Below, piece by piece: positions 18,889 to 33,852 of a DNA stretch of 64,000 nt. Every line of letters starts with the position of its first letter. Positions within the stretch are counted from its first letter, which is position 1. The position numbers were made by a program, and so were the translations under genes. The notes under the pieces are model-generated. The model was not told the origin of the DNA. It saw only the letters and a list, made by a program, of their open reading frames with translations, and searched no databases. The DNA comes from Tianweitania populi (lineage in GTDB: Bacteria; Pseudomonadota; Alphaproteobacteria; Rhizobiales; Rhizobiaceae), in the NCBI RefSeq assembly GCF_014652875.1, contig NZ_BMZQ01000005.1, positions 124,001 to 188,000 on the forward strand. The letters run 5' to 3'.

Positions 18889-18915
18889 AAGGTCGCCTTT
18901 CCATTCGGCGACCTT
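18889..18915. terminator. bidirectional terminator between convergent genes
   Basis: AAGGTCGCC / GGCGACCTT, a 9-bp stem with a 9-base loop, between the ends of the AraC gene and the binding-protein gene. T- or A-containing flanks on both sides suit termination in both directions. Confidence 0.6.
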
Positions 18916-18937
18916 CCATGTTCATGCGGGGGCGAGC

Positions 18938-19789
18938 TTACGGCGTGACGTCGAAGCCGAACCACTTTTCGGACAGGCGCTTGACGGTGCCATCGGCCTT
19001 GGCAGCCTCGATGGCCTCGTCAAACATCTTCTTCAACTCCGGCTCGTTCTTGCGCAGGCCAACGGCCACGCCGCGTCCGAGAATACCGCCCTTGAAGTAA
19101 GGTCCGGTCATCACGATGCCCTCGTTGCCCGGCTTCTTGGCAGCGTCGGTGAGGTAGGCGAGCGAAGCGACGATAAGGTCGACGCGGCCGGAGCCAAGAT
19201 CGAGATCGTGCTGGTCTGTCGTCTTGTATTCTTGGATTTCGATGGAATCCTTGAAGTACTTGTCCAGCAGCGACAGGCCGAGCGAAGCGCTTTGAACGCC
19301 GACCGTCTTGCCCTTGATCTCAGCCGTCACATCATCGATCGCCTTCTGAACTCCAGCCTCATCCTGTGCGAGGTAGAGCGTCTCGCCCGTATGAGGAAGC
19401 TTGGCATACGGGCTGTCCTTCAGCGTTGCGAAGGTCTGAGGGGTGAGGCCGTAGGAGATAGAGAAATCGATGGTCTCTTCGCGCTTCGGCGTGGCGGTCA
19501 AGCCAGCCATGATGGCGTCGAACTTGCCGGCGGTGAGTGCGGGGATGATGCTGTCGAAAGGCTGCGCCACCATCGTGCACTCGATCTTCATGCGTGCGCA
19601 AAGATCCTTGTAAAGATCGACTTCATAGCCATCCAGCGAGCCATCCGGATTGGTGAAGTTATAAGGACGGAAAGCGCCTTCCGTCGCGATGGTGAGCTTG
19701 GTCCACTTCTTCTCTTCCGCATACGCAGAGGCGGTGGTCAGAACCAGCGCGGAAACGATCAGTGTCTTCAACAGTCTCGTAGTCTTCAT
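18938..19789 (-). CDS. orphan polar amino-acid ABC substrate-binding protein
   Basis: 283 residues with a signal peptide (MKTTRLLKTLIVSALVLTTA, cleavage near AYA). It belongs to SBP family 3: TIATEGAFRPYNFTNPDGSL, the GYEVDLYKDLCARM helix, and the ligand-pocket segments DAIMAGLTATPKREETIDFS and GKTVGVQSASLG. It resembles lysine/arginine/ornithine or opine binding proteins. No permease or ATPase gene is adjacent: the next minus-strand gene upstream is the rhodanese, 195 bp away. It must therefore share a transporter encoded elsewhere or act as a sensor. Confidence 0.9.
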   Translation of the reverse strand: MKTTRLLKTLIVSALVLTTASAYAEEKKWTKLTIATEGAFRPYNFTNPDGSLDGYEVDLYKDLCARMKIECTMVAQPFDSIIPALTAGKFDAIMAGLTATPKREETIDFSISYGLTPQTFATLKDSPYAKLPHTGETLYLAQDEAGVQKAIDDVTAEIKGKTVGVQSASLGLSLLDKYFKDSIEIQEYKTTDQHDLDLGSGRVDLIVASLAYLTDAAKKPGNEGIVMTGPYFKGGILGRGVAVGLRKNEPELKKMFDEAIEAAKADGTVKRLSEKWFGFDVTP

Positions 19790-19919
19790 GTGAATACCCT
19801 TGGGTGGCTACCCGGAAAGCACCGCCATCAGCGGTCCAACCAGCTTGGACAACGCTGCATTATCACGGCTTTTTAGCCAGCGACATTGCCAGGACTAACC
19901 CGTCGGGCGTTTGTGGATG

Positions 19920-19964
19920 GGACGGTAGGCCGGTTGCTCGGTAAGAGCCGTCAGCCTGCCGTCC
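19920..19964 (-). terminator. long hairpin downstream of the sulfur operon
   Basis: GGACGGTAGGC pairs with GCCTGCCGTCC (one G-T pair), and a second stem GCTC/GAGC sits inside. It starts 20 bp past the rhodanese stop codon. It has no clear T tract, so it may end or stabilise the operon transcript. Confidence 0.4.
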
Positions 19965-19983
19965 GCAGAAGCTCCATCTATGC

Positions 19984-21549
19984 TCAGCGGACTACGTGGA
20001 AGTTGGAGACGCCATCATTGGCGAGCTGCGCGACCAGTTCGAGCTCCCAGTCGATATAGGCCTGCATGTTGGCTCTTGCATTGTCCGTGCCTTCGTAGGG
20101 CCGTTTGTAGACGTCGATTGGCTCCGACAGATAGTTGGCTTCGCTATCGAGTCCGTAGCCAGCCGCGTGCCATGCCTCTGTGCCGCCAGCCAGGATCAGC
20201 AACTCGCGCGATCTTAAAGCGGATATTTCGGTCAGGTTCGCGGCGGCAACACGGCCGTCAGGCGAAGTGAGAACCAACGGATCGTTCCCATCTAGCGTTG
20301 CAACGTCGCGGGCAAGCTCCGGCCCTGATGCAAAGTAGGCGCCGGGGATATGGCCCTTGCGGTAGGCAGGACTGCGGGCGAGGTCGACGACGACCACTTC
20401 GTTTAAGCGATCGTGCAGTTCGTGCGGCGTGATGGCACGGAATGCCCTCTGACCGTTTGGTGAAATCGGACTATCCTCCGCCGCAGGCAGATCCGCTGCT
20501 TCAGAGAGAACAAACACGTCCCAACCCATCTGGATCAGCCAGGACGCCGCCATCCGTGCGCGGACGCCATCGTCGTCATAGAGGACGACACGAGCACCGC
20601 GCACGCCGAGCCATTCATCGGTTGCCTGAACAAGCTGGCCGCCGGGTGCGGATGCAAAGCCGGCTGGGTGCCCGGCAACGTATTCGCGGGGATCGCGGAC
20701 GTCGAGTGTGTAGAGCGTGCGTGTCTCTGCCTCGCTGCGAAAGCGGGAAAGATCCTCTGTTCCGATAATGGGCACGCCGACATGCTCAGCCCACCTACCA
20801 GCGCGCGAACGCGCGTGGCTGCGCGCTTCGTTGGACGGCGTGTCGACCCGCGCGCTTTGGTGGCTTTCAAGCCCCAGCCCTTCAAGCGTCCAGCCGATCG
20901 TTCCGTTGCGCAGAGCCACGACGCGGTTAGGGATGCCGGCATTGACGAGGCTCTGCGTGCCAATGATCGACCGCGTGCGTCCAGCGCAGTTGACGATGAC
21001 GAGCGTTTCCGGCGACGGCGCGACGTCGTGGATGCGGTAAACGAGTTCGCCGCCGGGCAGGCTGCGCCCACGCGGAATGCTCATCGTGTTGTATTCTTCG
21101 AAGCGGCGTGCATCCACCACCACAACATCCTCTTGTGTCTCGAGGATCTGCTTTACTTCATTGGCCGGCAGCGACGGGGTGTGGCGGATTGCTTCAACGA
21201 GTTCGCCAAAGGCTTTCGAAGGCACGTTGACATCTCGATAGACTTCGCCGACCTCACGATAAGCTGAAAGGCCGCCTTCGAGGATCGCGACGTCGCTATA
21301 GCCGAGAGCGACAATGCGCGTGGCGGCTCGCTCGGCATACCCCTCACCATCATCATAAACGACGATCGGCGCCCCAAGCCGCGGCACGAGTGTGGGAAGA
21401 GATATTTCCACTTCGCTGACCGGCACGCTGAGCGCAAACAACGGATGAGCTTCGGAAAAAGGGCCCTCCTCGCGCACATCGAGCAGGGCGACTTCGCGCC
21501 CGGTTTTCCAGAAGGCGCGAAGTTCCTTGGGGGTGATCGTCTTTGTCAT
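19984..21549 (-). CDS. four-domain rhodanese-like sulfurtransferase
   Basis: 521 residues made of four rhodanese-type domains: about 5-100, 115-225, 255-355 and 370-475. Only the second has a catalytic cysteine (C188 in VNCAGRTR). The matching loop positions in domains 1, 3 and 4 read VYDDGEG, LYDDDGV and LTSPDGR, so these are inactive structural or regulatory copies. Last gene of the organosulfur operon, 26 bp after the DszC/SfnB-like monooxygenase. I infer that it handles sulfite- or thiosulfate-derived sulfane sulfur released by the monooxygenases. Confidence 0.88.
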   Translation of the reverse strand: MTKTITPKELRAFWKTGREVALLDVREEGPFSEAHPLFALSVPVSEVEISLPTLVPRLGAPIVVYDDGEGYAERAATRIVALGYSDVAILEGGLSAYREVGEVYRDVNVPSKAFGELVEAIRHTPSLPANEVKQILETQEDVVVVDARRFEEYNTMSIPRGRSLPGGELVYRIHDVAPSPETLVIVNCAGRTRSIIGTQSLVNAGIPNRVVALRNGTIGWTLEGLGLESHQSARVDTPSNEARSHARSRAGRWAEHVGVPIIGTEDLSRFRSEAETRTLYTLDVRDPREYVAGHPAGFASAPGGQLVQATDEWLGVRGARVVLYDDDGVRARMAASWLIQMGWDVFVLSEAADLPAAEDSPISPNGQRAFRAITPHELHDRLNEVVVVDLARSPAYRKGHIPGAYFASGPELARDVATLDGNDPLVLTSPDGRVAAANLTEISALRSRELLILAGGTEAWHAAGYGLDSEANYLSEPIDVYKRPYEGTDNARANMQAYIDWELELVAQLANDGVSNFHVVR

Positions 21550-21575
21550 GTCTTTCCTCGAATACGGTGTCGCGC

Positions 21576-22826
21576 TCAGAAGAAGGCGCCGGTCGGCGGC
21601 AAGGCACCGTTCAGATAATGATCGCCGAGAACTCGTTCCTTGTAGATGCGCGGATTATGCGCGGCGATGACCTTGAGGTTGCGCCAATGACGGTCGAGCG
21701 CCTTCGAGCTCGAAACGGCGCTGCCGCTGCCGACGTCGAGCAGAAGGCCGGCCAGGTTCGCCGCCACTTCGTCCGTTACCACCTTCGCCTCCGCGGCCGC
21801 GATGCTGGCTGCAATCGACAGGGCGCCGGCTTCCGGCGATGCTTCTTTCGCCCAGGCGAGATCGAGCGCGGCGATGGCGCGATCGACCGTGCCGAGGATC
21901 GCAGCGCGGTAAGCGGCAATCCGCCCGATCACCGTCTGGATCTCTGGCTCATCGGTCGGCTTTTCAGCAAGCGCGTGGTAGAAGTTGCGGCTGCGCGAGC
22001 GGACCAGCGCCAGCGCATCCTGCAAGATGCGGGTGACGATGCCGGAGATGATCGTGGTCAGATAAACCTGATGGAAGGTGAAGCCGTAAAGATAGGGATC
22101 ATTCTCGCCCCGCTCGGGAAGTTCGTAAAGGTCTTCTGGCGCCACGCCCACATCGGCAAAGATCGTTTTACCTGAGCCTGTCAGCTTCTGGCCGAAGCCG
22201 TCCCAGTCATCGTCAAGCGTCACGCCATCTGCTTTGGTCGACACGAGGAATTGGGCGATCTTGCCTGTTCGTCCATCCAGTGCCGAGGCGAAGAGGTGGT
22301 CGGCATAGATGTTGCCGGTGCTATAGATCTTGGTGCCGGTGACACGATAAGCGCCATCGGCATCGGACCACCGCAGGGCCGAGCCCGGAACCTGGCCGCG
22401 GCTTCCGGCGGGTCCGCCGCCTGCTTCGGAGAAGGCCACGCCGAACATCCTGTTCTGTGCGGCAAGGGCTAGAACGCGCTGCGAGAACGGCTCGGCTGCC
22501 GTTTTCGCGTGTTGCTCGACAGCGTAGAAGTGGTTGCGAAAGACATGCGCAATGTTGGGATCGGCGGTCGCGAGATCACGAGCGAGGGCAAACAGGTCTG
22601 GAAGTGTGATGCCCGCGCCGCCTTGGTTCACCGAAAGGCGGACTGCACCGAAACCGCGCTCCTTCAACAGCCGCGTTTCTTCGAAGATCGGACGACGGAA
22701 AACATCGCGCTCCGCAGCACCGGCCGCGAAGTCCGCGAACAGCGGATCCAGGCCCAGCCGGCGCGTGACCGGATGCCAGACCAGTTGCGCCGCGGCGGAA
22801 GCATCAAAGGTTGAGACTTGCAGCAT
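21576..22826 (-). CDS. acyl-CoA dehydrogenase-fold flavin monooxygenase (DszC/SfnB-like)
   Basis: 416 residues from an ATG preceded by GAGGG; the longer TTG start overlaps the upstream stop. It has the acyl-CoA dehydrogenase fold (N-terminal helices, AFSEAGGGPAG loop, C-terminal helical bundle) but groups by pattern with sulfur-acquisition oxidoreductases and DszC, which use reduced flavin to oxygenate organosulfur compounds. The position inside an ssu-like operon with a flavin reductase supports this role over fatty-acid oxidation. Probably soluble and cytoplasmic. Confidence 0.85.
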   Translation of the reverse strand: MLQVSTFDASAAAQLVWHPVTRRLGLDPLFADFAAGAAERDVFRRPIFEETRLLKERGFGAVRLSVNQGGAGITLPDLFALARDLATADPNIAHVFRNHFYAVEQHAKTAAEPFSQRVLALAAQNRMFGVAFSEAGGGPAGSRGQVPGSALRWSDADGAYRVTGTKIYSTGNIYADHLFASALDGRTGKIAQFLVSTKADGVTLDDDWDGFGQKLTGSGKTIFADVGVAPEDLYELPERGENDPYLYGFTFHQVYLTTIISGIVTRILQDALALVRSRSRNFYHALAEKPTDEPEIQTVIGRIAAYRAAILGTVDRAIAALDLAWAKEASPEAGALSIAASIAAAEAKVVTDEVAANLAGLLLDVGSGSAVSSSKALDRHWRNLKVIAAHNPRIYKERVLGDHYLNGALPPTGAFF

Positions 22827-22834
22827 ATCAACCC

Positions 22835-24199
22835 TCAAGCGGCCGTGCCAACATGCCGGACAGGCTCGGCATCGCGCGGATCGACATAGTGAGCCAGCCC
22901 CAGGTGGTGGCGGAGCGTCTGTCCGGTGTAATCGGTGCGGAAGCGACCGGCCTTCTGCAGGATCGGGATGACATGATCGACGATGTCTTCGAGACCGCTC
23001 GTCTGCACGTCGATATTGAGGTTGAAGCCGTCGGCCGCACCCGTGTCGATCCAGTGCAGGATGTCAGCCGCGATTTGCTCCGGGGCACCAACCACCATGC
23101 GGTGACCGCCGATGATGTTGCTGAGGGCGGCCTGGCGCGCCGTCCATCCATACGTCACCGCTTCCGACAGGATCTGCTTGCGCGGCCAACGGGACGCGAT
23201 CGGCACCCTTGGCTCGGCTGCCTCGATGCGCGCGAACGGCAGCGGCTCGTCCAGCGGCAGGTCATCGGGATCGAGTGCGAAATGGCGGGCGAGTTCGCCA
23301 TGCAGGAAGTCGAGGTCGAGCCCGGCATCGAGATCGGCCTTGCGTCGCAGGGCCTCCTGTTCCGTGCCGCCGACGATCGGGAACAGACCCGGCATGACGA
23401 GAAGATCATCCGCGTTGCGACCGTTGGAACGGGCAAGCGCCTTCACGTCGGCATAGAACTTGCGCCCGCCCTCGATGACACGCTGCCCCGTGAACAGCGC
23501 ATCCGCATAGCGCGCGCCGAAGGCCTTGCTGTCTTCCGACTGGCCGGCTTGGAAGATCACCGGTCGCCCTTGCGGTCCGACCGGCGCTGACAATGAGCCC
23601 TTGGTGCGGAAATGCTTGCCTTGGATGTCGATCGGGCGCAACGCCTGTTCATCCACGAAGACGTTGCGGGCGTGATCGGCGACAATCGCCGCATTCGGCA
23701 ACGAGTCCCATAGGCCGGTGACAATCTCCGCGAACTCGCTTGCGCGACGGTAGCGTTCTTCCTGGTCGAAGCCTTGATCAAGGCCATAGGCAGCCAGCGC
23801 AACGGGCGACTGGCTGGTAATGATGTTCCAGGCCGCGCGCCCCTTGCTGATGTGGTCGAGCGTGGCGATCTGGCGCGCAACGACGTAGGGATGGCCGAAG
23901 ATCGTGGAGGTCGTGGCAACCAGACCAATGCGTTCCGTTACTTGGCTTAGTGCGGACAGAAGCGTGATCGGATCCAGCGCGCGCCAGGGCCGGTGAAAAG
24001 CTTCATCCACCAATCCTCCTGGTCCGTCGGCCAAGAAGAGCGCATCGATCTTGCCGCGCTCGGCGACCTTGGCGATGCGGATGAAAGCGTCGATGTCGCT
24101 GGAAAGGCCGGCGGCATCGGGCAAGGTCTTCCAGGCAGCATCGTGACGGCCGGATGCAAGCACGTTGACGCCGAGGCGCACAGGTTTGGCGGCGGGCAT
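22835..24199 (-). CDS. FMN-dependent LLM monooxygenase (NtaA/SnaA/DszA family)
   Basis: 454 residues preceded by AGAGGAG. A luciferase-like TIM barrel of the NtaA/SnaA/SoxA/DszA subfamily: LFLADGPGGL near residue 55, TSTIFGHPYVVARQIATLDH, GRAAWNIITSQ near residue 140, and PVIFQAGQSEDSKAFGARYAD near residue 230. It uses FMNH2 (supplied by the operon's flavin reductase) and O2 to cleave C-S or C-N bonds. The ssu-like transporter next to it points to a sulfonate, sulfone or thioether substrate. It sits between the binding-protein gene and the DszC-like gene. Confidence 0.9.
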   Translation of the reverse strand: MPAAKPVRLGVNVLASGRHDAAWKTLPDAAGLSSDIDAFIRIAKVAERGKIDALFLADGPGGLVDEAFHRPWRALDPITLLSALSQVTERIGLVATTSTIFGHPYVVARQIATLDHISKGRAAWNIITSQSPVALAAYGLDQGFDQEERYRRASEFAEIVTGLWDSLPNAAIVADHARNVFVDEQALRPIDIQGKHFRTKGSLSAPVGPQGRPVIFQAGQSEDSKAFGARYADALFTGQRVIEGGRKFYADVKALARSNGRNADDLLVMPGLFPIVGGTEQEALRRKADLDAGLDLDFLHGELARHFALDPDDLPLDEPLPFARIEAAEPRVPIASRWPRKQILSEAVTYGWTARQAALSNIIGGHRMVVGAPEQIAADILHWIDTGAADGFNLNIDVQTSGLEDIVDHVIPILQKAGRFRTDYTGQTLRHHLGLAHYVDPRDAEPVRHVGTAA

Positions 24200-24268
24200 G
24201 AGACGAACTCCTCTGGGTTCTGAAAAAGAAGGCGCGACGGCTGCCAGTCAGGTTCGGCCTAATGAAGA

Positions 24269-25276
24269 TCAGACGCGCAGAACATGGTCTGAAACAGTGA
24301 TGCGTTCGGGCAGGATGGAGCGTTCAGCCAGCCAGTCCGCCGCTTTCTGGAAATCGGCGAGGAAGCCTGTGTCATCGGCTTCGTAGAACTTGTTTTGACG
24401 CTTGTAGGCGACGAGATGATCGCGCACGGCGTCGCTGTACTGGCCTTCCTTCTGCGCGATGGTTTCGGCCTCCAGCGGATTGTCGCTGATCCACTGGCCT
24501 TCCTGATGGTAGGCGTCGATCACGGCGCGCACGAGGGCTGAGTTGTTCGTCGCGAAATCGCGCAGCGTGACCAGCGAGGAATAATCGATCAGGAAGTCGA
24601 GATCCGTTCCTTCGAAGAAGATGTCCTTGGCGTCATATTGTTCGCGCGCGATATCGACGGCCGGCGTCCACATCGACCAGGCATCGACGCGGCCTTGGCC
24701 GAATGCCGGCGAAGCGTCTGGCGGGTTCAGGTAGACGAATTCGACATCCTTGCGGTCCACGCCGTTCTTCTCAAGCGCTGCCACCAGCAGAAACTCACCC
24801 AATCCGGACCGATTGACGGCAACCTTTTTGCCGACGAGATCGGCAACGGAGTCGATGCCGGAGTCCTTCTTCACGATGATCGCGGTGGAGCGCGGCGTGT
24901 AGACGTTGAAGTTGGTGAAAACGAAGGGTGACCCGGCGATGATGCCGGCAAGGGCTGGCGTCGTGCTGCCCCAGAAGCCGAAATCGGCACTGCCGCCGAC
25001 CACGGCCTGAAGCGACGGAGCGTGGTTGGGAAAAGGGCCTACCCACTCGACCTTGATGTCTTCACCGGCAAGTATCTTCTCGAACTCGCCACGCTGCTTC
25101 GCCACGAGCGGCAACCCGCCGCGACCCCAGCCAAGGCGCACCGTATCGGTATTGCGGGTGCCTTGCGCTGACGCACTGCCCGTCAATGCGACGCCGGTTG
25201 CCGCGGCGCCAAGCGCCAGGGTCGCGCCTTGAAGAAGGCTGCGGCGGTTGATTTTGAAGTGTTTGGAAACCGTCAT
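24269..25276 (-). CDS. sulfonate-type ABC substrate-binding protein (SsuA-like)
   Basis: 335 residues. The N-terminus (INRRSLLQGATLALGAAATG) is a twin-arginine-type signal peptide ending near ASAQ. The mature part matches the NMT1/SsuA family: RLGWGRGGLPLVAKQRGEFE, SLQAVVGGSADFGFWGSTTP, and the VGKKVAVNRSGLGEFLLVAAL and QGRVDAWSMWTPAVDI segments. It is the periplasmic receptor for the ATPase and permease encoded just upstream in the same operon. Confidence 0.92.
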   Translation of the reverse strand: MTVSKHFKINRRSLLQGATLALGAAATGVALTGSASAQGTRNTDTVRLGWGRGGLPLVAKQRGEFEKILAGEDIKVEWVGPFPNHAPSLQAVVGGSADFGFWGSTTPALAGIIAGSPFVFTNFNVYTPRSTAIIVKKDSGIDSVADLVGKKVAVNRSGLGEFLLVAALEKNGVDRKDVEFVYLNPPDASPAFGQGRVDAWSMWTPAVDIAREQYDAKDIFFEGTDLDFLIDYSSLVTLRDFATNNSALVRAVIDAYHQEGQWISDNPLEAETIAQKEGQYSDAVRDHLVAYKRQNKFYEADDTGFLADFQKAADWLAERSILPERITVSDHVLRV

Positions 25277-25369
25277 GCTGAAACGTCCTGTCTGATGAAA
25301 GAGGGCAAAGGGATGACGTTCGACCGGCTGCAGCCTGTCGTGAAAGCCTTGGTTAAGAGTGTTTACGTG

Positions 25370-26077
25370 CTAGGCGGCGCGCTCGTGGAGCGTGACGCCG
25401 AGTTGGCCGAGAAGCTTGTGCCGCAAAGACTGGGGACCGCTTTCGGTCTCCGCTGCGACTTCGTATGTTGAAGCGATGCGACCACCGCGCATCACCAAAA
25501 TGCGGTCGGCCAGCGCGATGGCTTCATCCACGTCATGGGTCACAAGGAGAACGCCAGGCCGGTGCAGGGCAACGAGATCCTTGATCAGTTCGTGCATCTT
25601 GATCCGGGTCAGCGCGTCGAGTGCGGCGAAGGGCTCGTCCAGGAGAAGAAGCGACGGTTCGCGCACGAGGGCACGAGCAAGTGCAACACGCTGCGCCTGT
25701 CCGCCGGAAAGATTGCGAGGCCAGTCGTTTTCACGTCCGCCAAGCCCGACTTCTTGCAGTGCGGCAATGGCTTTCGCCTTGCCTTCCGCCGTGTCCATGC
25801 CGAGTGCCACGTTCTGCCAGAGAGGCGCCCACGGAAGCAGGCGGTGTTCCTGAAACACGACCGCAGGCTGGGCAGGTCCGTCGATCGAGCCGCCATCCAC
25901 CGGATCGAGACCGGCCAGCGCGCGCAAGAGCGTGGTTTTACCGCATCCGCTTTCACCCAGCATGGCGACGAACTCGCCGGGCTCGATGCGCAGGTTCAGG
26001 CCTTCGATGACGATCCGCTTGCCGTAGTGACGATGCAGGTCGCGAACGACGACCGCGGCGTTGTTCTGGAGGCTCAA
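25370..26077 (-). CDS. sulfonate-type ABC transporter ATPase (SsuB-like)
   Basis: 235 residues with all ABC ATPase motifs: Walker A LGESGCGKTTLLRAL, Q-loop VVFQEHRLLPW, signature LSGGQAQRVALARAL, Walker B LLLLDEPFAALD and the switch histidine in LLVTHDVDEA. The HRLLPW Q-loop is typical of the SsuB/TauB group. Overlaps the permease gene by four bases. Energises sulfonate-class uptake at the inner membrane. Confidence 0.93.
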   Translation of the reverse strand: MSLQNNAAVVVRDLHRHYGKRIVIEGLNLRIEPGEFVAMLGESGCGKTTLLRALAGLDPVDGGSIDGPAQPAVVFQEHRLLPWAPLWQNVALGMDTAEGKAKAIAALQEVGLGGRENDWPRNLSGGQAQRVALARALVREPSLLLLDEPFAALDALTRIKMHELIKDLVALHRPGVLLVTHDVDEAIALADRILVMRGGRIASTYEVAAETESGPQSLRHKLLGQLGVTLHERAA

Positions 26078-26937
26078 CGGCGTTCTCCCTTTGCATAGTT
26101 GGGATGCCAGGCGAGAAGCCGGCGCTCCAGGGCGCGCGCTGCGCTGTCGGCCAGCACGCCGATGGCGGCATAAATGACAATGGTCAGCACGATGACGTTG
26201 GTTTGCAGGAACTCACGCGCGTCCATGGCAAGGAAGCCGATGCCCTTTGTGGTGGCGATGGTCTCGGCAATCACAAGCGCAAGCCATGCAACGGCAAGGG
26301 CGTAACGCACGCCGGTGAGGATTGAGGGCAGCGCGCCCGGCAGGATGATCTTGGTGATGCGCCCGCGCAAGGAGAGCCCCGTGACCTTCGCAAGTTCCAG
26401 AAGCTTCAAATCGATCTGGCGGATGCCCAGCACGGTGTTGATGTAGATCGGGAACATCACGGCCAGCGAAACAAGGAATATCTTGCCGGCTTCGTCGACG
26501 CCGAACCAGACGATGACAAGCGGTAAGAGCGCAAGAAAGGGAATAGCCCGGATCATCTGGATCGAGCGATCGAGGAGCGCTTCGGCGAGCCGTGAGAAAC
26601 CAACGAGGATGCCGAGCGCAAAGCCGATGCTCCCGCCGATGGCGAAGCCGATCGCCGCGCGAAGCATGCTATAGCCGAGATGTTCAAACAGCGTGCCATT
26701 TGCTAGGAGCTTCCAGGCGGTGGCCACAACCGTGCTGGGCGCCGGCAGGACCTGTGGTCTTATCCAACCGAGATGTGCGGCCAGTTCCCAAGCGACCACC
26801 AGCAGAAGTGGCGCTAGCCAAGAGAGCGCCAGCAACTCGCTGTCCCGCAAAGCTCTGTGGGACCGGGTGTCGATCAAACCGCTTGAGCGGGATGATCGGA
26901 GCGTCGGGCCGGACGACAAGGACGTTTCAAGCGTCAT
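26074..26937 (-). CDS. sulfonate-type ABC transporter permease (SsuC-like)
   Basis: 287 residues with about six membrane segments. After a polar N-terminal stretch comes LLVVAWELAAHLGWI, then PSTVVATAWKLLANG, a feature of SsuC/TauC permeases. The coupling loop near residue 185 reads ELAKVTGLSLRGRITKIILPG, followed by GVRYALAVAWLALVIAET. It works with the SsuB-like ATPase. Confidence 0.93.
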   Translation of the reverse strand: MTLETSLSSGPTLRSSRSSGLIDTRSHRALRDSELLALSWLAPLLLVVAWELAAHLGWIRPQVLPAPSTVVATAWKLLANGTLFEHLGYSMLRAAIGFAIGGSIGFALGILVGFSRLAEALLDRSIQMIRAIPFLALLPLVIVWFGVDEAGKIFLVSLAVMFPIYINTVLGIRQIDLKLLELAKVTGLSLRGRITKIILPGALPSILTGVRYALAVAWLALVIAETIATTKGIGFLAMDAREFLQTNVIVLTIVIYAAIGVLADSAARALERRLLAWHPNYAKGERR

Positions 26938-26967
26938 GACAGATCCTGTTCGTTGAGGAGGGGACGC

Positions 26968-27504
26968 TCAGAGCGCGTTCAACGTGCCGTAACGACCATT
27001 GCCGTAAGCAAGCGCTGCACCATCACGCAGCCTGACGGCTCGTACGGCACCGAAGATCAGGGCGTGGCTATGCCGCTCGATCACCTCTTCGACCTCGCAG
27101 TCCACCGAGGCGAGCGCATCATCGAGCACGCCCGCGCCGGTCACGAGGCGCGACCAAGAACTACCGAGATACCGCGCCGGACCCTTGGTCCCACCGCGCC
27201 CGGCAAACCTGTCCGCGACCGCCTGCTGTTCGTTGCTCAGGACATTGACGCAGAAGTGCCCGTAGCGACGAATGGCCGGCCAGGTCGAGGACGACAGGTT
27301 GATGCTGACGAGCATCGTTTCAGGTTCGACGGAAAAGGAAATTGCCGTCGTCACCGTTGCGCCGGTTCTATCCTCGCCGATGCCAGCGGTGATTACACTG
27401 ACACCGCCAGCGGAACGCCGCATGGCATCCCTCAAGGATACCGTTGGGAGGGATAAAGCCCTGCTAGCTACTGGAGGGCGAAGCGCATCTGCGACAAGGG
27501 TCAT
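26968..27504 (-). CDS. flavin reductase (DszD/HpaC-like)
   Basis: 178 residues of the flavin-reductase-like domain family. The family pattern AMRRSAGGVSVITAG opens the domain; FSVEPETMLVSINLSSST and GHFCVNVLSNEQQAVADRFAG follow, then SHALIFGAVRAV near the end. It reduces FMN or FAD with NAD(P)H and hands it to the two monooxygenases of the operon. First gene of the minus-strand sulfur operon, 30 bp before the permease gene. The exact start is uncertain because no strong ribosome site is visible. Confidence 0.88.
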   Translation of the reverse strand: MTLVADALRPPVASRALSLPTVSLRDAMRRSAGGVSVITAGIGEDRTGATVTTAISFSVEPETMLVSINLSSSTWPAIRRYGHFCVNVLSNEQQAVADRFAGRGGTKGPARYLGSSWSRLVTGAGVLDDALASVDCEVEEVIERHSHALIFGAVRAVRLRDGAALAYGNGRYGTLNAL

Positions 27505-27898
27505 CTAATGATCTCTATCGTTTCCTGACGTGCCGAAGCAGCGTCGAGCACCTAAATAACCAAGCCTTCAGAGACCTCGCGACAAACCGGATGCTAAATC
27601 TACTAGCTTTGTAGGAATTTAAATCCCAAGGCGAGCTATCAACTCGGCGTGGATCGCATTTGATCTAACCCCCAAATTTGACTGCTGCTTTCCCCCTTCG
27701 AAAAATTTAGAAGACCGGCCCTCGACAATCCCTAGTAACTTACTAGACTATCTTTGTTGACGCTTCAGCCGTCAGCCTGGCTGCGAGAGGGGTAACCTCG
27801 GCGTGGGCCCAACAAGAAGTCGCGCAGGAGGAAGCGCGCTCAAGACAAGGATGACGACCGCTTAGCCGAACAACTCGGAACAGGATGGGAGAGCCTCC
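27505..27898. other. divergent intergenic region, AT-rich
   Basis: 394 bp between the sulfur operon and the short LLM gene, with visibly lower GC than its neighbours (27540-27770). It must hold promoters for both directions. I see the inverted element CTAC-tagcttt-GTAG at 27600-27614 next to GGAATTTAAAT, but no confident consensus and no gene. Confidence 0.4.
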
Positions 27899-28831
27899 AT
27901 GAGCATCGAATTTGCAGGCCTTATACTGACCCAGGCAGAAGCCGGGGTGCCTCGCCTTCACGAGCATCGCCGCAAGTCGGATCTGCCTCAGTCGTTTGCT
28001 CAAGCCGGGTTCGATACGATATTGGTTGGGGGAGCTGGTGCTCTTGGACTGGCGCGCGGACTATCTGCCGACCGTACCGGGCCGAAGCTCACCATCCAGC
28101 ACCGTCCGCATGAGGAACTGGTTGAAGCGGCGGATACGTTTGCTTTGCTGGACTGTAGCGCTGCTGGCGGGTTGAGCGTCGAAATCGTGGGCGAGCCCAC
28201 TTCAATCGAGCGTGCCTCCTTCGTTCACGAAACGGACCAGGCAAGAACCGACGAGTATCTCACCTTGTTGAAGCGCCTTTGGCTCAACGATAAAGCGATC
28301 GACTATGAAGGCCGCTTCTTCAGCCTGCACGGTGCTATACTCTCGGCGCGGCGATGTCACAGGACGCTGCCGCTCATCATAGGCGGGCGTTCCGCAGTCG
28401 CTGTTCGCGTCGCGGCACGGCATGCGGATGTGTTCAAGCTCGGCGGCGTTGGCCTTGCTGAAGCCAAGGACCTCATTGCGCAGGTGGAAGCTGCAGCGAT
28501 ACCGTTCGGTAGATCAGGCCGCATTCGCTACTCACTGGATATTCAACCGAATGATGTACCCCTAACAAAGTCAGGAACACGCTCGTTGGTCATGATGCCA
28601 CCGCAGGAAGTGCTGGAGTTAACCGGCCGCGCGGAAGACATGGTGCTGCAACTCCTTCCTTATATTGAGCTAGGCGTGTCGCACTTCACAGTGCGCGGGC
28701 TGCAAACGCCGGAGGATGTGGCCAGTTTCGGCGAAGACGTCATCTCGCTTCTGCGCCGAACACAGGAGCGCGCCGTGCACCACCGCTTTGGCTTGCATCC
28801 TGAAATTCGTTTGATGCAAACGCTTTCATAG
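27899..28831 (+). CDS. short LLM-class oxidoreductase (SsuD-like, shortened)
   Basis: 310 residues, roughly 60-70 fewer than the alkanesulfonate monooxygenase SsuD. Recognisable parts are DEYLTLLKRLWLNDKAIDYEGRFF, ILSARRCHRTLPLIIGGRS near residue 150, AARHADVFKLGG, and a C-terminal LLPYIELGVSHFTVRGLQTPED. The N-terminal barrel strands (residues 1-100) diverge and look compressed; the usual ERLRFL and VTGGDP blocks are poorly kept. It may be a specialised paralog or a decaying copy. Divergent from the sulfur operon, so the context supports a sulfur role. Confidence 0.65.
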   Translation: MSIEFAGLILTQAEAGVPRLHEHRRKSDLPQSFAQAGFDTILVGGAGALGLARGLSADRTGPKLTIQHRPHEELVEAADTFALLDCSAAGGLSVEIVGEPTSIERASFVHETDQARTDEYLTLLKRLWLNDKAIDYEGRFFSLHGAILSARRCHRTLPLIIGGRSAVAVRVAARHADVFKLGGVGLAEAKDLIAQVEAAAIPFGRSGRIRYSLDIQPNDVPLTKSGTRSLVMMPPQEVLELTGRAEDMVLQLLPYIELGVSHFTVRGLQTPEDVASFGEDVISLLRRTQERAVHHRFGLHPEIRLMQTLS

Positions 28832-29171
28832 AATCCAAGACACGGTCCCCCGTCGGGCCTAGAGCGTTGCCGGAGCCAGGATGAATGCTCATCTTGGCTC
28901 TACAAAAACTGCCTTTGAAGCGACTGCAGGCGTCAGCTGCGCTGGCGACGTCGGTGCAGCTTCGTTCTCAACGAAAACGCTTCTTCGATGTAAATCTTCC
29001 CTGATCTGCCATCACAGCGAATGTCCCATGCTTGGAAGTGCGATCAAGCTCATGGGAGCGTGGTGCAACACCATTGGTGAAGCAGTGAGGAAGCACCATG
29101 AGCCACATCCACAAAATGGCCGAATTGATCGCGTGTCGAACGACCGGTTTATCGTCGCAAGGAGTCGCTCG
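28832..29171. other. intergenic region before the 2OG oxygenase
   Basis: 340 bp. A frame open to the oxygenase start crosses it, but its translation (rich in Ser, Cys and His) resembles no leader domain. I read it as non-coding, holding the oxygenase promoter. Confidence 0.4.
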
Positions 29172-30191
29172 ATGACCAGGATCGTTCCTGTGCTGGATCT
29201 CAGTCAGCTTGAACGTGGCGAGCAGGCGCGAAGCGCGTTTCTTGCCGATCTCCGTTCAGCCGCGCGCGACATTGGCTTCTTCTATCTTGGCGGCCACGGC
29301 ATTTCGTTCGACGAGATCAATCAAGTCCTGAAGGCTTCGCGTCAGTTTTTCGCCCTTCCCGATGCCGAAAAGCAGGCGATCGAGATGGTCAACTCCCCGC
29401 AATTCCGCGGCTATACCCGCGCTGGCGGAGAGCGCACTCAAGGCAAGGCAGACTGGCGCGAGCAGCTAGACATTGGCTTTGAGCGTCCAACGCTCGTGCA
29501 GGAGCCCGGCTCACCTGCTTGGACGCGGTTGCAAGGGCCCAATCAGTGGCCTGCTTCGCTTCCTGATCTTCAATCGCGTTTGCTGAATTGGCAGAACAAG
29601 GTCACCGATGTTGGGATCCGGCTGCTACAGGCTTTCGCGCTCGCGCTTGAACAGGATGAGGATGCGTTCGGCTCGATCTATCGCGGCGAGCCGAACCATC
29701 GCATGAAGATCGTCCGATATCCTGGGCGCGAGACGGAGGCGAATGATCAGGGCGTCGGCGCGCATAAGGATGGCGGCTTCCTGACCTTGCTTCTCCAGGA
29801 CGAAAACCGCGGCTTGCAAGTGGAATATGACGGCAGCTGGGTGGATGTCGAGCCGCTGCCGGGCACCCTCGTCGTCAACATCGGCGAACTTCTGGAACTC
29901 GCCTCCAACGGTTATCTCCGCGCAACGGTACACCGTGTCGTTGCACCGCCTGCTGGCGTCGATCGCATCTCCGTCCCGTTCTTCTTCAGCGCAAGGCTCG
30001 ACGCCACCATTCCGCTGCTGGATTTGCCGGAGGAGCTTGCACGGGAAGCGACTGGTCCGGCCAGCGATCCGGATAATCCATTGCTGCGCGATGTCGGCGC
30101 CAATGTCCTGAAGAGCCGGTTGCGCTCCCATCCGGACGTAGCGGAGCGCCATTACGCCGATCTTCTCGGCAAGGCGCCCCGCGCAGCCTGA
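29172..30191 (+). CDS. 2-oxoglutarate/Fe(II)-dependent oxygenase, isopenicillin N synthase family
   Basis: 339 residues from an ATG with AAGGAG eight bases upstream. It has the N-terminal DIOX_N domain (PVLDLSQLERGEQARSAF, ARDIGFFYLGGHGI) and the double-stranded beta-helix core with iron ligands H198-x-D200 and H254 and the 2-oxoglutarate-binding R265-x-S267. GGFLTLLLQD and LVVNIGELLELASNGYLRATVHRVV are typical. The substrate is unknown. It lies between a sulfur operon and an amino-acid-type transporter, so oxidation of an imported organosulfur or amino-acid-like compound is plausible. A strong terminator follows. Confidence 0.9.
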   Translation: MTRIVPVLDLSQLERGEQARSAFLADLRSAARDIGFFYLGGHGISFDEINQVLKASRQFFALPDAEKQAIEMVNSPQFRGYTRAGGERTQGKADWREQLDIGFERPTLVQEPGSPAWTRLQGPNQWPASLPDLQSRLLNWQNKVTDVGIRLLQAFALALEQDEDAFGSIYRGEPNHRMKIVRYPGRETEANDQGVGAHKDGGFLTLLLQDENRGLQVEYDGSWVDVEPLPGTLVVNIGELLELASNGYLRATVHRVVAPPAGVDRISVPFFFSARLDATIPLLDLPEELAREATGPASDPDNPLLRDVGANVLKSRLRSHPDVAERHYADLLGKAPRAA

Positions 30192-30334
30192 TGGATGGTT
30201 TGTTCCTCGTCGACGAACAATTTAGAATCCTGTTCGTCGTGAGGTGAAGCCGGGTCTGCCAGAACAACCGAACGCCCGCTGGTTCCTCTTTCGGCGGACG
30301 TGTTCCCCTCAGAAGGTCTCGCACCTTCCACTTG

Positions 30335-30366
30335 ACCGGGCCGCATGCGCGCCCGGTTTTTCTTTT
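30335..30366 (+). terminator. Rho-independent terminator after the 2OG oxygenase
   Basis: ACCGGGC-cgcatgcgc-GCCCGGT followed by TTTTCTTTT. It lies in the 356-bp gap before the amino-acid transporter; the rest of that gap holds the AT-rich promoter region near 30400-30460. Confidence 0.85.
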
Positions 30367-30547
30367 CCCGTCAGTCGTTTAGCCGCATATTCGAGATGCC
30401 TCAAAGTTTAGCACGCTGCTCGTCAAACCAGCTGGATTTTAGTTTGGAATTTCTAGTCTGAAGCCTCTGAGCAAGTACCCTGAGATTATCAACCACGGCG
30501 GGGGACGCCGGCTGGACGATAACAAACGAGACTCAGGAGCATTCATC

Positions 30548-31582
30548 ATGACGTCCACGAAACGCTTGGGCCATGGCTGGAGATCGGTTTTGGCAGCTGG
30601 CCTGGCGATCAGTACAACCTTTCTCGCGACGCCCGGTCATGCCGGTCCGACACTGGACAAGATCAAGGAGCGCGGCTCCATCAAGGTTGGCGTTGGCACG
30701 ACGCCCGGCTTCTTCGCGCCCGACAGTAGCGGTAAGTGGCAGGGTTTTTTCATCGATTACGGCCGCGCGCTGTCGATCGCCGTGTTCGGCACGCCGGATA
30801 AGGTCGAATTCACCAACTCATCGCCGCAGCAGCGTCTGCCCGCGCTTCAATCCGGCGAGTTCGACATCCTTCTTTCGGGCGTCACCGTCACCGTTACCCG
30901 CGCCTTCCAGCTCGGCTTCCACTTCGGTCCGACCATCTTCTATGATGGCCAGGGCATTCTGGTGCGCAAGGATCTAAACGTCGGAAAGGCGGCTGATCTC
31001 GACGGCGCAACGATCGGCATTCAGAGCGGCACAACCGGCGAGCTCAATATTGCCGACTTCTTCCGCAAGACTGGCAAGCAGTTCACGCCGGTGACCATCG
31101 AAGACACCAGCGAATTCATCGACGCGCTGCAATCAGGCCGCGTCGATGCGATCACGCAGGACTCGTCGGATCTTGTCGGCAAGCGCACGCAGCTGAAGAA
31201 CCCGGATGACTACGTCGTTCTGCCCGAGCGCCTGTCCAAGGAGCCGCTCGCTCCGGCAATCGCCGGCGGCGATGATCGCTGGCTGGAGATCGTTAACTGG
31301 ACCGTCAATGCCACGATCCAGGCTGAAGAGTGGGGCATCACTTCGGCTAATGTCGACGAGTTCCTAAAATCCGAAGATCCGGCCATCAAGCGCTTCCTCG
31401 GTGTCGATCCTGCGCTCGGCCAATCGATCGGCCTTGATCCGAAATGGGCTTACAACATCATCAAGACCGTGGGCAATTACGGTGAGTTGTTCGACAAGCA
31501 CCTGAAGCCGCTGGGCTGGGAGCGTGGCTACAACCGCCTGTGGACCGACGGCGGCCTGCTTTATTCGCCGCCGTTCCGCTAA
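30548..31582 (+). CDS. general amino-acid-type ABC substrate-binding protein (AapJ/BztA-like)
   Basis: 344 residues, CAGGAG just upstream, signal peptide ending near GHA. SBP family 3, AapJ branch: GPTLDKIKERGSIKVGVGTT opens the mature protein; a DLDGATIGIQSGTTGELNIADF block and SADVD-like DALQSGRVDAITQDSSDL follow. The C-terminal LGLDPKWAYNIIKTVGNYGE-type end (here IGLDPKWAYNIIK) is characteristic of AapJ. First gene of a three-gene operon with two permeases but no ATPase. Confidence 0.92.
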   Translation: MTSTKRLGHGWRSVLAAGLAISTTFLATPGHAGPTLDKIKERGSIKVGVGTTPGFFAPDSSGKWQGFFIDYGRALSIAVFGTPDKVEFTNSSPQQRLPALQSGEFDILLSGVTVTVTRAFQLGFHFGPTIFYDGQGILVRKDLNVGKAADLDGATIGIQSGTTGELNIADFFRKTGKQFTPVTIEDTSEFIDALQSGRVDAITQDSSDLVGKRTQLKNPDDYVVLPERLSKEPLAPAIAGGDDRWLEIVNWTVNATIQAEEWGITSANVDEFLKSEDPAIKRFLGVDPALGQSIGLDPKWAYNIIKTVGNYGELFDKHLKPLGWERGYNRLWTDGGLLYSPPFR

Positions 31583-31594
31583 GCGCAAGCATCC

Positions 31595-32782
31595 ATGACA
31601 ACCGAAACGATACTGCCGGGCCCGACAAGGCCCGGCATCTTGCGTCAGGTGCGCGCCTGGTGGGGGCCGCATGCGCTGTCGCAAGGGCTGTTTATCGCCG
31701 CACTCGGCCTGCTGGTCATTGTGCTGGCCAGCAACACGCTGGCGACCATGACGCGCATCGGGATTACACCCGGCTTCGACTTCTTGTGGCGCTCGGCCAA
31801 TTTCGAGATCGGCGAGGGCTTGATCCCCTTTCGCGCTGGCGATCCCTATTTTCGCGCGATACTCGTGGGGCTGCTCAACACGATCAAGGTTGCAGCACTC
31901 GGCTGCGTTTTCGCCACCATTTTAGGCGTGATTCTGGGTGTTGCCGGACTGTCGGGCAACCTCCTGCTCGCCACCCTCGTGCGTTGGTATATCGAAGCGA
32001 TCCGCAACACGCCGCTGCTGTTGCAATTGTTCTTCTGGATCGCGCTCGCCAAATCATTCCCGCCGCCTCGCGCCGCCATCAGCGCATTTGACTCCGTGTT
32101 CCTCACCAATCGCGGCGTGTTCGTTCCTACGGTCAATCTCGTGGAGGCGAGTGCGTGGACCTGGTGGCTGATCATCGCGATTGTTGCTGCCCTTGTCGCT
32201 GGTTTGTCGTGGCTGCGCCGTGGCCATGGGCTGACTTTAAGCCGCTTCGGGGTGCTATTCGTCGCCGGCCTTGTCGCGATTGCCATTGTTCTACTCCTCA
32301 GCGATGGCCGCTTCAGCGCCGAACTTCCTGTTTTGGCCGGGTTCAATATTCGTGGCGGAGCAAGCCTGACGCCGGAATTTGCCGCGCTGCTGACGGGTTT
32401 GACCGTGAAGTTCTCCGCGGCCATCGCCGAGATTGTGCGCGCGGGAATCCAGTCCGTCAGCCAGGGGCAGTGGGAAGCAGCGCGGACGCTCGGCCTGCGC
32501 GACGGCCAGATCATGCGCCTGATCGTGCTGCCGCAGGCGCTGCGGGTGATCACCCCGCTGACAACGTCCAGCTATCTCGACCTCACCAAGGATTCCAGCC
32601 TCGCCGTTGCGATTGGCTATCCCGACCTCGTCAATGTCATCAACACCACGGCCAACACGACAGGCCAGTCCTTTGAAGCGCTGGCGATCCTGATAGGCCT
32701 TTATCTCACCCTCAATCTGACAGTGTCGGCTGCTATGAACCTGTATAATCGGCGCGTTGCCTTGCGGGGGCAGGCGCGATGA
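31595..32782 (+). CDS. amino-acid-type ABC permease (AapQ/BztB-like)
   Basis: 395 residues, the long permease form of the Aap/Bzt family with extra N-terminal helices. Markers are TRIGITPGFDFLWRSANFEIGE, RNTPLLLQLFFW near residue 137 and the coupling region IVRAGIQSVSQGQWEAARTLGL near residue 285, followed by VLPQALRVITPLTTSSYLDL. Starts 12 bp after the binding-protein gene and overlaps the next permease by four bases. Confidence 0.92.
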   Translation: MTTETILPGPTRPGILRQVRAWWGPHALSQGLFIAALGLLVIVLASNTLATMTRIGITPGFDFLWRSANFEIGEGLIPFRAGDPYFRAILVGLLNTIKVAALGCVFATILGVILGVAGLSGNLLLATLVRWYIEAIRNTPLLLQLFFWIALAKSFPPPRAAISAFDSVFLTNRGVFVPTVNLVEASAWTWWLIIAIVAALVAGLSWLRRGHGLTLSRFGVLFVAGLVAIAIVLLLSDGRFSAELPVLAGFNIRGGASLTPEFAALLTGLTVKFSAAIAEIVRAGIQSVSQGQWEAARTLGLRDGQIMRLIVLPQALRVITPLTTSSYLDLTKDSSLAVAIGYPDLVNVINTTANTTGQSFEALAILIGLYLTLNLTVSAAMNLYNRRVALRGQAR

Positions 32783-33852
32783 CCGACGGCTTCCAAACTG
32801 TCCGGCAGGCGAACGTCATTTTCGATCGCCTACGTCGCGGTCTGTTCGGCGGATGGCTGAACACCAGCCTCACGGTTCTGACGGTAGTATTGCTGGTTTG
32901 GATTGTACCTCCGCTGATCCGATGGGGGCTGCTTGATGCAAGCTTCTCGGGTCCCTCGGGCGATTGCGTCGCGGCCGGTGGTGCGTGCTGGTCCTTCGTC
33001 GCCGCCAAGCTGCGTTTCATCCTGTTCGCCTTCTACCCACCCGACCTGCAATGGCGTCCGCTGCTGGTCATGCTGCTGCTTGTTGCGCTCCTAGTGATCA
33101 CGGCACAGCCACGCTTCTGGCGGCGCGAACTGCTGATTGCCTGGATCGTCGTGATCGTCGGCAGCTGGGTGCTGATGTCCGGCGGTTGGCTCTTGCTGCG
33201 CGTGCCGTCGAACCAGTGGGGCGGCTTGCCGGTCACACTCTTTGTGTGGACCGTCTGCTTCGCCCTCGCCATGCCGCTCGCCGTGCTACTTGCCCTTGCG
33301 CGACGCTCCCGCATGGGCGGCCTCCGCACTGTCTCAATCCTCTTAATCGAATTGATGCGCGGCACGCCGATGGTGGCGATCCTTTATGTGGCGATGCTGA
33401 TCCTGCCGATGGCTATCCCTGGCGGTCAGGGCTTCGACAAGACGCTGCGCGCCATGATCATGATCACCCTGTTCTGGTCGGCTTACGTGGCAGAGGTCGT
33501 GCGCGCCGGTCTGCAGACAATCCCGGCTGGCCAGGAAGAGGCGGCCACCGCGCTCGGTCTCGGCTACTGGCGCACGATGCAGCTGATCGTCTTGCCGCAA
33601 GCGCTGCGCCTTGTCATTCCCGGCCTCGTCAACCTGGCGATCGGGTTCCTGCTTGCGACCTCGCTGCTTGCAGTGATCGGCATCTTCGATCTCCTGAACG
33701 CCGCCCGCGCCTCCGCCACCGACCCGCAGTGGCTGGGTTTCTATGACGAAGCCTACCTCACCGTCGCCGTGATCTATTTTGTGTTCTGTTATGCGGGATC
33801 GCGTTACAGCCGATGGCTTGAGCGCAGGCTGGGAAGCCATGTTAGGCCGTGA
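32779..33852 (+). CDS. amino-acid-type ABC permease (AapM/BztC-like)
   Basis: 357 residues with about eight hydrophobic segments. LIELMRGTPMVAILYVAML near residue 190 and VVRAGLQTIPAGQEEAATALGL near residue 240 are the family motifs. In Aap/Bzt operons the ATPase gene aapP follows; here the next gene is an unrelated kinase on the other strand. The transporter therefore needs an ATPase from elsewhere, or the operon has lost its last gene. Confidence 0.92.
   Translation: MTDGFQTVRQANVIFDRLRRGLFGGWLNTSLTVLTVVLLVWIVPPLIRWGLLDASFSGPSGDCVAAGGACWSFVAAKLRFILFAFYPPDLQWRPLLVMLLLVALLVITAQPRFWRRELLIAWIVVIVGSWVLMSGGWLLLRVPSNQWGGLPVTLFVWTVCFALAMPLAVLLALARRSRMGGLRTVSILLIELMRGTPMVAILYVAMLILPMAIPGGQGFDKTLRAMIMITLFWSAYVAEVVRAGLQTIPAGQEEAATALGLGYWRTMQLIVLPQALRLVIPGLVNLAIGFLLATSLLAVIGIFDLLNAARASATDPQWLGFYDEAYLTVAVIYFVFCYAGSRYSRWLERRLGSHVRP

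Follow-up and report, generated by a model that had tools for sequence, protein, structure and literature searches.

A 1yt8-type four-domain rhodanese in an organosulfur operon, and the linkage of its family to cysteine-dioxygenase-type and organosulfur monooxygenase genes

This analysis identified the protein encoded at 19984-21549 of a 64,000 nt stretch of the Tianweitania populi genome (the whole stretch is referred to here as the window) as belonging, almost certainly, to the family of four-domain rhodaneses represented by the structure 1yt8, and as being of the alphaproteobacterial type. Its gene is, with near certainty, a late gene of an operon for sulfonate or organosulfur uptake and oxidation. 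Across the family, the gene is repeatedly linked to cysteine-dioxygenase-type (CDO-type) genes and to organosulfur monooxygenases; the quantification of this link is the useful outcome, and the link ties a poorly known protein to bacterial use of organic sulfur. The best overall explanation, which is considered moderately probable, is that of a 1yt8-type rhodanese in an organosulfur operon, in which C188 would exchange sulfane sulfur with sulfite or thiosulfate.

Domain architecture, active loops and conservation

Four tandem rhodanese domains had been proposed for this protein in the initial annotation, and four PF00581 stretches are indeed present (E 3.4e-40; Table 1), not the two domains that define two-domain rhodaneses and MST. 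The initial annotation gave no strand; the ORF is on the minus strand, the plus-strand frame at 19984-21549 being interrupted by stops, and its length fits the roughly 520-540 aa of the 1yt8 family. C188, in the loop VNCAGRTRS of domain 2, is the only cysteine in the 521 aa. Based on domain-profile alignment, its place is occupied by D66 (DDG), D325 (DDDGVR), and S429 (SPD) in domains 1, 3, and 4, respectively, D325 having been placed via domain 1 due to the alignment of domains 2 and 3 ending before the loop. The earlier reading of DDG, DDD, and SPD as loops without the cysteine was therefore correct, as was that of a single C188-AGRTR motif, which proves to be one conserved catalytic-type cysteine. 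In the window protein, catalysis would, judging by the loop residues, be carried out by domain 2 alone. The AlphaFold2 model has a mean pLDDT of 93.2 and a pTM of 0.91.

Table 1. Features of the rhodanese gene and its neighbours on the minus strand of the window.
Feature	Position	Strand	Evidence or remark
Flavin reductase, first gene of the unit	26968..27504	-	PF01613, 117.9 bits, over cut-off
SsuC-type permease	26074..26937	-	Best NCBIfam match NF008470, 302 bits, below cut-off of 347
SsuB-type ABC ATPase	25370..26077	-	Best NCBIfam match NF008420, 221 bits, below cut-off of 395
SsuA-type sulfonate-binding protein	24269..25276	-	TIGR01728, 163.9 bits, cut-off 163.5
NtaA/DmoA-family FMN-dependent (LLM) monooxygenase	22835..24199	-	TIGR03860, 426 bits, cut-off 280
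SfnB/DszC-like acyl-CoA-dehydrogenase-fold oxidoreductase	21576..22838	-	TIGR04022, 221.3 bits (cut-off 430.9); NF043015, 91 bits (cut-off 850)
Four-domain rhodanese, 521 aa, ATG start	19984..21549	-	ORF; PF00581; 1yt8 match over residues 8-520; fold
Rhodanese domain 1, aa 4-101, Asp66 at catalytic position	21247..21540	-	
Rhodanese domain 2, aa 125-226, active loop C188-A-G-R-T-R	20872..21177	-	
Codon TGC of C188, sole cysteine of the protein	20988-20986	-	
Rhodanese domain 3, aa 260-350, loop D325-D-D-G-V-R330	20500..20772	-	
Rhodanese domain 4, aa 372-466, Ser429 at catalytic position	20152..20436	-	
C-terminal tail RPYEGTD...DWE..., family-specific, end mostly helical	19987..20151	-	
Family-3 amino-acid-type periplasmic binding protein	18938..19789	-	194 nt downstream of the rhodanese; operon membership uncertain

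Among solved structures, the best relative is 1yt8 (539 aa, E 7.3e-154, 52 % identity over query residues 8-520), a Pseudomonas aeruginosa 'thiosulfate sulfurtransferase' released in 2005 (PDB 1yt8). The AlphaFold2 model superimposes on this crystal structure with a TM of 0.94 and a Z of 60 (519 residues aligned, rmsd 1.9); a single domain comes next, with a Z of 16. The tail RPYEGTD...DWE is found in the window protein, in the alignment of its relatives, and in 1yt8. The initial annotation regarded four domains as unusual, yet 1yt8 is a four-domain structure that matches nearly the whole length of the window protein, and the architecture has been known from the PDB since 2005. Among the papers listed in a search of open-licence literature, there was none on 1YT8 or on 'four rhodanese domains' and no activity assay of any 1yt8-type family member; judging by titles and the openings of abstracts, only PMC5373536 bears on the family. 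In the tree, the window rhodanese and that of locus L130, from another genome of the same order, are sisters (100/100), nested in an alphaproteobacterial group with Methylocystaceae, Acidocella, Bradyrhizobium, and Telmatospirillum.

To assess conservation, the window protein was aligned with its relatives at 51 of the 80 named loci (52 rows in all), the named loci being the best 80 of at least 596 confirmed relatives. NCAGRTRS, D66, D325, and R330 are invariant (52/52 rows). The invariance of NCAGRTRS and the confident model place the described architecture far beyond chance. There are 9 invariant positions in domain 1, 32 in domain 2, 15 in domain 3, 3 in domain 4, and 11 in the tail. The catalytic position of domain 4 is Ser in 28 and Cys in 24 of the rows. 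In 18 further loci, picked mostly as divergent, the C188 position is always Cys (18/18, with one CGGRTR and one CAGLPR loop), position 66 is Gly in three, position 325 is Cys in two (L137 and L143), and position 429 is Ser in six and Cys in two.

Domain 2 is thus predicted to be the conserved catalytic unit of the family, whereas a cysteine is apparently gained or lost by lineage in domain 4 and, in few cases, in domain 3. The three domains that are without cysteine here are not constant across the family, and since some relatives also have a Cys in domain 4 or 3, a single active domain may not hold family-wide. The domain-4 Cys was considered as a marker of CDO linkage and rejected, there being no clear link in the 52 rows (Cys with CDO-type gene, 20; Cys without, 4; Ser with, 18; Ser without, 10), where linkage means a CDO-type gene on the same strand within 1 kb and L101, with its CDO-type gene at 1.3 kb, is scored as without. 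For an origin by doubling of a two-domain rhodanese, the domain-versus-domain profiles do not give the expected pairing (E-values: domains 3 and 4, 2.7e-12; 1 and 3, 2e-11; 1 and 4, 2.2e-10; 1 and 2, 4.1e-9; 2 and 3, 2.7e-6; 2 and 4, 3.2e-6).

The operon and its genome

On the minus strand, the gene order is flavin reductase, SsuC, SsuB, SsuA, the DmoA-type monooxygenase, the SfnB/DszC-like oxidoreductase, and the rhodanese, with successive intergenic gaps of 30, -4, 93, 69, -4, and 26 nt, the LLM monooxygenase overlapping the SfnB/DszC-like gene by 4 nt. The features of an Ssu/Dmo/Sfn-type system are present: an ABC importer with an SsuA-family protein, and an FMN-dependent monooxygenase with a flavin reductase. 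The oxidoreductase at 21576..22838 is only SfnB-like, being under the curated SfnB cut-off. Placement of the rhodanese after two flavin-monooxygenase-type genes, as first described, is confirmed, the SfnB/DszC-like gene ending 26 nt upstream, and the organosulfur-operon setting is likewise supported.

The order from SsuC to the rhodanese is kept in L130, with protein identities of 87, 82, 85, 81, 75, and 74 % in that order; neither the flavin reductase nor the downstream family-3 binding protein was found in the L130 locus. Scans for promoter and terminator consensus sequences performed no better than on shuffled sequence (promoter-like matches: 3, shuffled mean 2.2; terminator-like matches: 9, shuffled value 10.2), therefore a single transcription unit is proposed from the spacing only. 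The GC content, 61.7 % in 18901-27550 and 60.5 % in the whole window, gives no sign either way.

Beside the operon, no permease or ATPase in the ORF list adjoins the binding protein at 18938-19789 on its strand. On the plus strand, 27899-33852 holds, in divergent orientation to the operon, a 2OG-Fe(II) oxygenase and another LLM monooxygenase with weak similarity to SfnG, followed downstream by an amino-acid-type binding protein-like ORF and two permease-like ORFs, these being judged by eye. The sulfur island may reach past the operon into this region. At E <= 1e-40, the family gene is absent from two same-genus genomes, the closest copy found (74 %, G167) is from another family of the same order, and same-family copies are 35-47 % identical. 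Given this distribution, the window operon (19984-26937) may be laterally acquired.

Neither PF05995 nor a seven-row profile of linked CDO genes detected a CDO-type gene in the window's genome (assembly 99.17 % complete); an adjoining CDO-type gene, common in the family without defining it, is therefore missing from the window protein's setting. The genome does contain one sulfite/nitrite-reductase-type frame (PF01077), one molybdopterin-oxidoreductase-type frame (PF00174), and three further rhodanese frames. Its contig C3 also carries, at about 121891-123015, another multi-domain rhodanese: the frame of 473 aa contains three PF00581 stretches, and its aligned part is 26 % identical to the window protein. 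Of the seven other named relatives grouping closest to the window protein, four (L032, L033, L034, and L036) have a CDO-type gene no more than 1 kb away, unlike the three Bradyrhizobium loci L035, L037, and L038; in L130, there is a CDO-type gene elsewhere in the genome. The Bradyrhizobium loci of the named set are four-domain. The distribution of the CDO-type gene suggests that the window's lineage may have lost or left it. The window represents a case of the organosulfur context standing without the dioxygenase.

Gene neighbourhoods across the family

The 80 named loci were investigated with up to 10 kb of flank on each side, some contigs ending within this distance, and 32 of the loci are labelled Pseudomonas. 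In 57 of the 80, a member of one neighbour cluster is no more than two genes away from the rhodanese, and two members of this commonest cluster (L077 and L101) match CDO_I (PF05995). Based on the cluster profiles, 64/80 loci have a CDO-type gene on the same strand and no more than 1 kb away. The commonest partner of the family is therefore a cysteine-dioxygenase-type gene, which was not seen in the initial annotation. An LLM monooxygenase is within 2.5 kb in 35/80, and at least two of LLM, SsuA/TauA-type binding-protein, acyl-CoA-dehydrogenase-type, and TauD genes are within 10 kb in 52/80. In 9/80, neither kind of gene, CDO-type or organosulfur, is within 10 kb. Of the 31 taxon labels, 22 include CDO adjacency and 16 the organosulfur pair.

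Since the marker profiles were derived from gene clusters in the flanks of these same 80 loci, an evenly drawn sample and control regions were added. From 398 genomes drawn across the window's phylum, 39 have the family at a threshold of E <= 1e-40, including the window's own. CDO_I is in 22 of the 39 genomes with the family compared to 16 of the 359 without (Fisher p 7e-16, not corrected for relatedness); the CDO_I and family counts were taken to be of the same 398 genomes, as the same handles recur. For each of the other 38 genomes, a 20-kb region (12 kb in one, L178) around the best-matching copy was surveyed, using plain longest frames as gene calls. The controls comprised 20 regions of 20 kb, at hand-picked round-number positions in 17 genomes that all carry the family.

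At least two of LLM monooxygenase, SsuA/TauA-type binding-protein, SfnB/acyl-CoA-dehydrogenase-type, and TauD genes are within 10 kb in 17/38 loci and in none of the 20 controls (p 1.8e-4). A survey of ortholog neighbours for ssu/dsz-type genes had been put forward as the check on the sulfur-operon setting, and this result is in its favour. An LLM monooxygenase alone is within 10 kb in 18/38 loci and 0/20 controls (p 8e-5), and no CDO-type gene is in the 20 controls. A CDO-type gene is on the same strand within 1 kb in 14/38 by the profile survey and in 16/38 by eye from the coordinates. The two counts differ in four genomes, G345, G328, and G379 by coordinates only and G377 by the profile survey only; in the profile survey, matches mostly inside the rhodanese frame were dropped, by which some CDO genes beside over-long frames were lost. 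In 25/38 loci, there is a CDO-type gene or at least one organosulfur marker within 10 kb; that 13/38 have none counts against the best explanation given above.

Three-domain forms make up 9 of the 38 sampled loci (L131 and L171-L178), with frames of 429-442 aa in which domain 4 is absent and NCAGRTRS and the tail are kept (9/9). A CDO or organosulfur marker is within 10 kb in only 1/9 of these versus 24/29 four-domain loci. All nine belong to one genus (g12 of family f3), therefore the three-domain loci may reflect a single event. Two of the three-domain forms are also represented by shorter stretches, L030 and L031, and L131 groups with Caulobacterales in the tree. Recurrent neighbours of the three-domain forms match 2-hydroxyacid-dehydrogenase-type and TonB-receptor-type profiles, and L131 has PepSY_TM and DUF1963 neighbours.

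A divergent four-domain subfamily was also observed (L136-L140, L142, L143, L146, and L147; 9 rows, 100/100 in the tree), with a tail resembling LFFVHDRHDGN in place of RPYEGTD. Seven neighbours in five of its loci were checked, and five of them could be named: alpha/beta hydrolases in L140 and L143, a Cys/Met PLP enzyme in L137, a nucleotidyltransferase in L138, and a family-3 binding protein in L139, a locus that also has a CDO-type gene. The other two neighbours matched no family.

Proposed function and comparison with known systems

The family is widespread, with a structure available since 2005, and its CDO and monooxygenase linkage points to sulfite, thiosulfate, and persulfide as the substrate class. 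The pathways of the linked oxygenases end in sulfinate or sulfite, therefore sulfite handling is the likeliest job. In the proposed mechanism, C188 would accept sulfane sulfur as a persulfide and exchange it with sulfite or thiosulfate. The rhodanese could thus cap sulfite released by the oxygenases with sulfane sulfur, giving thiosulfate, which is less toxic and can be assimilated, or, in the reverse direction, draw sulfane sulfur from thiosulfate; formation of thiosulfate from sulfite is one of several possible rhodanese directions. A structural or binding role may fall to the tail and to the Asp loops of domains 1 and 3. With no CDO-type gene detected in its genome by the two profiles, the window rhodanese would work with other oxygenases. 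Taken by itself, sulfite or thiosulfate chemistry at C188 is a reasonable possibility that falls somewhat short of probable.

The loop residues of other rhodaneses are informative here. In the available text of one study, thiosulfate-dependent transfer was lost or reduced when the loop-end Arg of RDL2 or of a DUF442 rhodanese was replaced, and changing the loop-end Thr of human TST abolished transfer to cyanide, with transfer to glutathione not significantly changed (PMC8533005). The C188 loop of the window protein also ends in Arg. Extracellular 3-mercaptopropionate was not significantly changed in a Pseudomonas protegens delta-tst mutant, according to the portions available of the report (PMC12947264). 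The upstream 3-mercaptopropionate step does not, then, need tst, and the result speaks to that step only.

The protein could instead be a sulfur donor that accepts thiosulfate or persulfide and supplies sulfane sulfur for cysteine, Moco, or tRNA modification, expressed under sulfur limitation and with no action on sulfite, which is unlikely. The operon is of the sulfur-scavenging type, as this would require. Furthermore, a rhodanese-domain protein in the mercaptosuccinate dioxygenase clusters of Variovorax and Advenella, although discussed for sulfite detoxification, is also suggested in the accessible text to serve cofactor synthesis of a molybdopterin sulfite-oxidising enzyme (PMC5373536). 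However, tight linkage to CDO-type genes is not an obvious signature of starvation, and no cofactor-synthesis gene is among the annotated representatives of the recurrent neighbour clusters.

A more elaborate version of the sulfite reading is rather improbable. In it, the protein would be specialised as a partner of oxidative C-S cleavage, capturing sulfite on its release by thiol-dioxygenase and FMN-dependent pathways and turning it into thiosulfate; the Asp-loop domains 1 and 3 would bind the anion or dock the releasing enzyme, and only this setting would require domain 4, a point to which the marker counts of 1/9 three-domain and 24/29 four-domain loci pertain. It is still less probable that the rhodanese is a passenger, incidental in its operon position, with the usual job of the family being on an endogenous thiol. 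The missing CDO-type gene and the position of the rhodanese as the last gene of the conserved block would fit this, but the six-gene order is shared with L130 at 74-87 % identity and organosulfur linkage recurs in other lineages.

The channelling scaffold of the initial annotation, a mostly non-catalytic protein in which the domains without cysteine dock monooxygenases and pass sulfite or persulfide between them, is improbable to a similar degree: although the well conserved domain 3 (D325 and R330 in 52/52 rows), the linker between domains 1 and 2, and the tail indicate a retained binding role, the most conserved domain is domain 2 with its Cys loop, which argues for catalysis, and domain 4 is the least conserved and is missing from nine sampled genomes that keep C188 and the tail.

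Two-domain rhodaneses and MST have the rhodanese fold, with one inactive and one active domain, and those compared (1rhd, 1urh, and 1e0c) have chains of 256-293 residues and whole-chain TM values to the query of 0.17-0.22. YnjE (2wlr and 3ipo) and EanB (6ktv and others), presumably three-domain rhodaneses, likewise have several rhodanese domains per chain, but whole-chain TM values of just 0.19-0.25.

The window protein and 1yt8, which we take to be PA2603, have in common four rhodanese domains along the chain, the C-AGRTR motif in domain 2, and the tail. They differ at the loop position of domain 4, which is Cys in 1yt8 and Ser429 in the window protein. The Pseudomonas loci of the family differ also in setting, as a CDO-type gene is within 1 kb in 31 of the 32 named loci, P. 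aeruginosa not being among these, whereas none was found in the window's genome. In P. protegens CHA0, as described in the available part of the report, the PA2603 homolog tst (c14100), annotated as a probable thiosulfate sulfurtransferase, is beside 3mdo and belongs, unlike the window gene, to a thiol-dioxygenase unit (PMC12947264).
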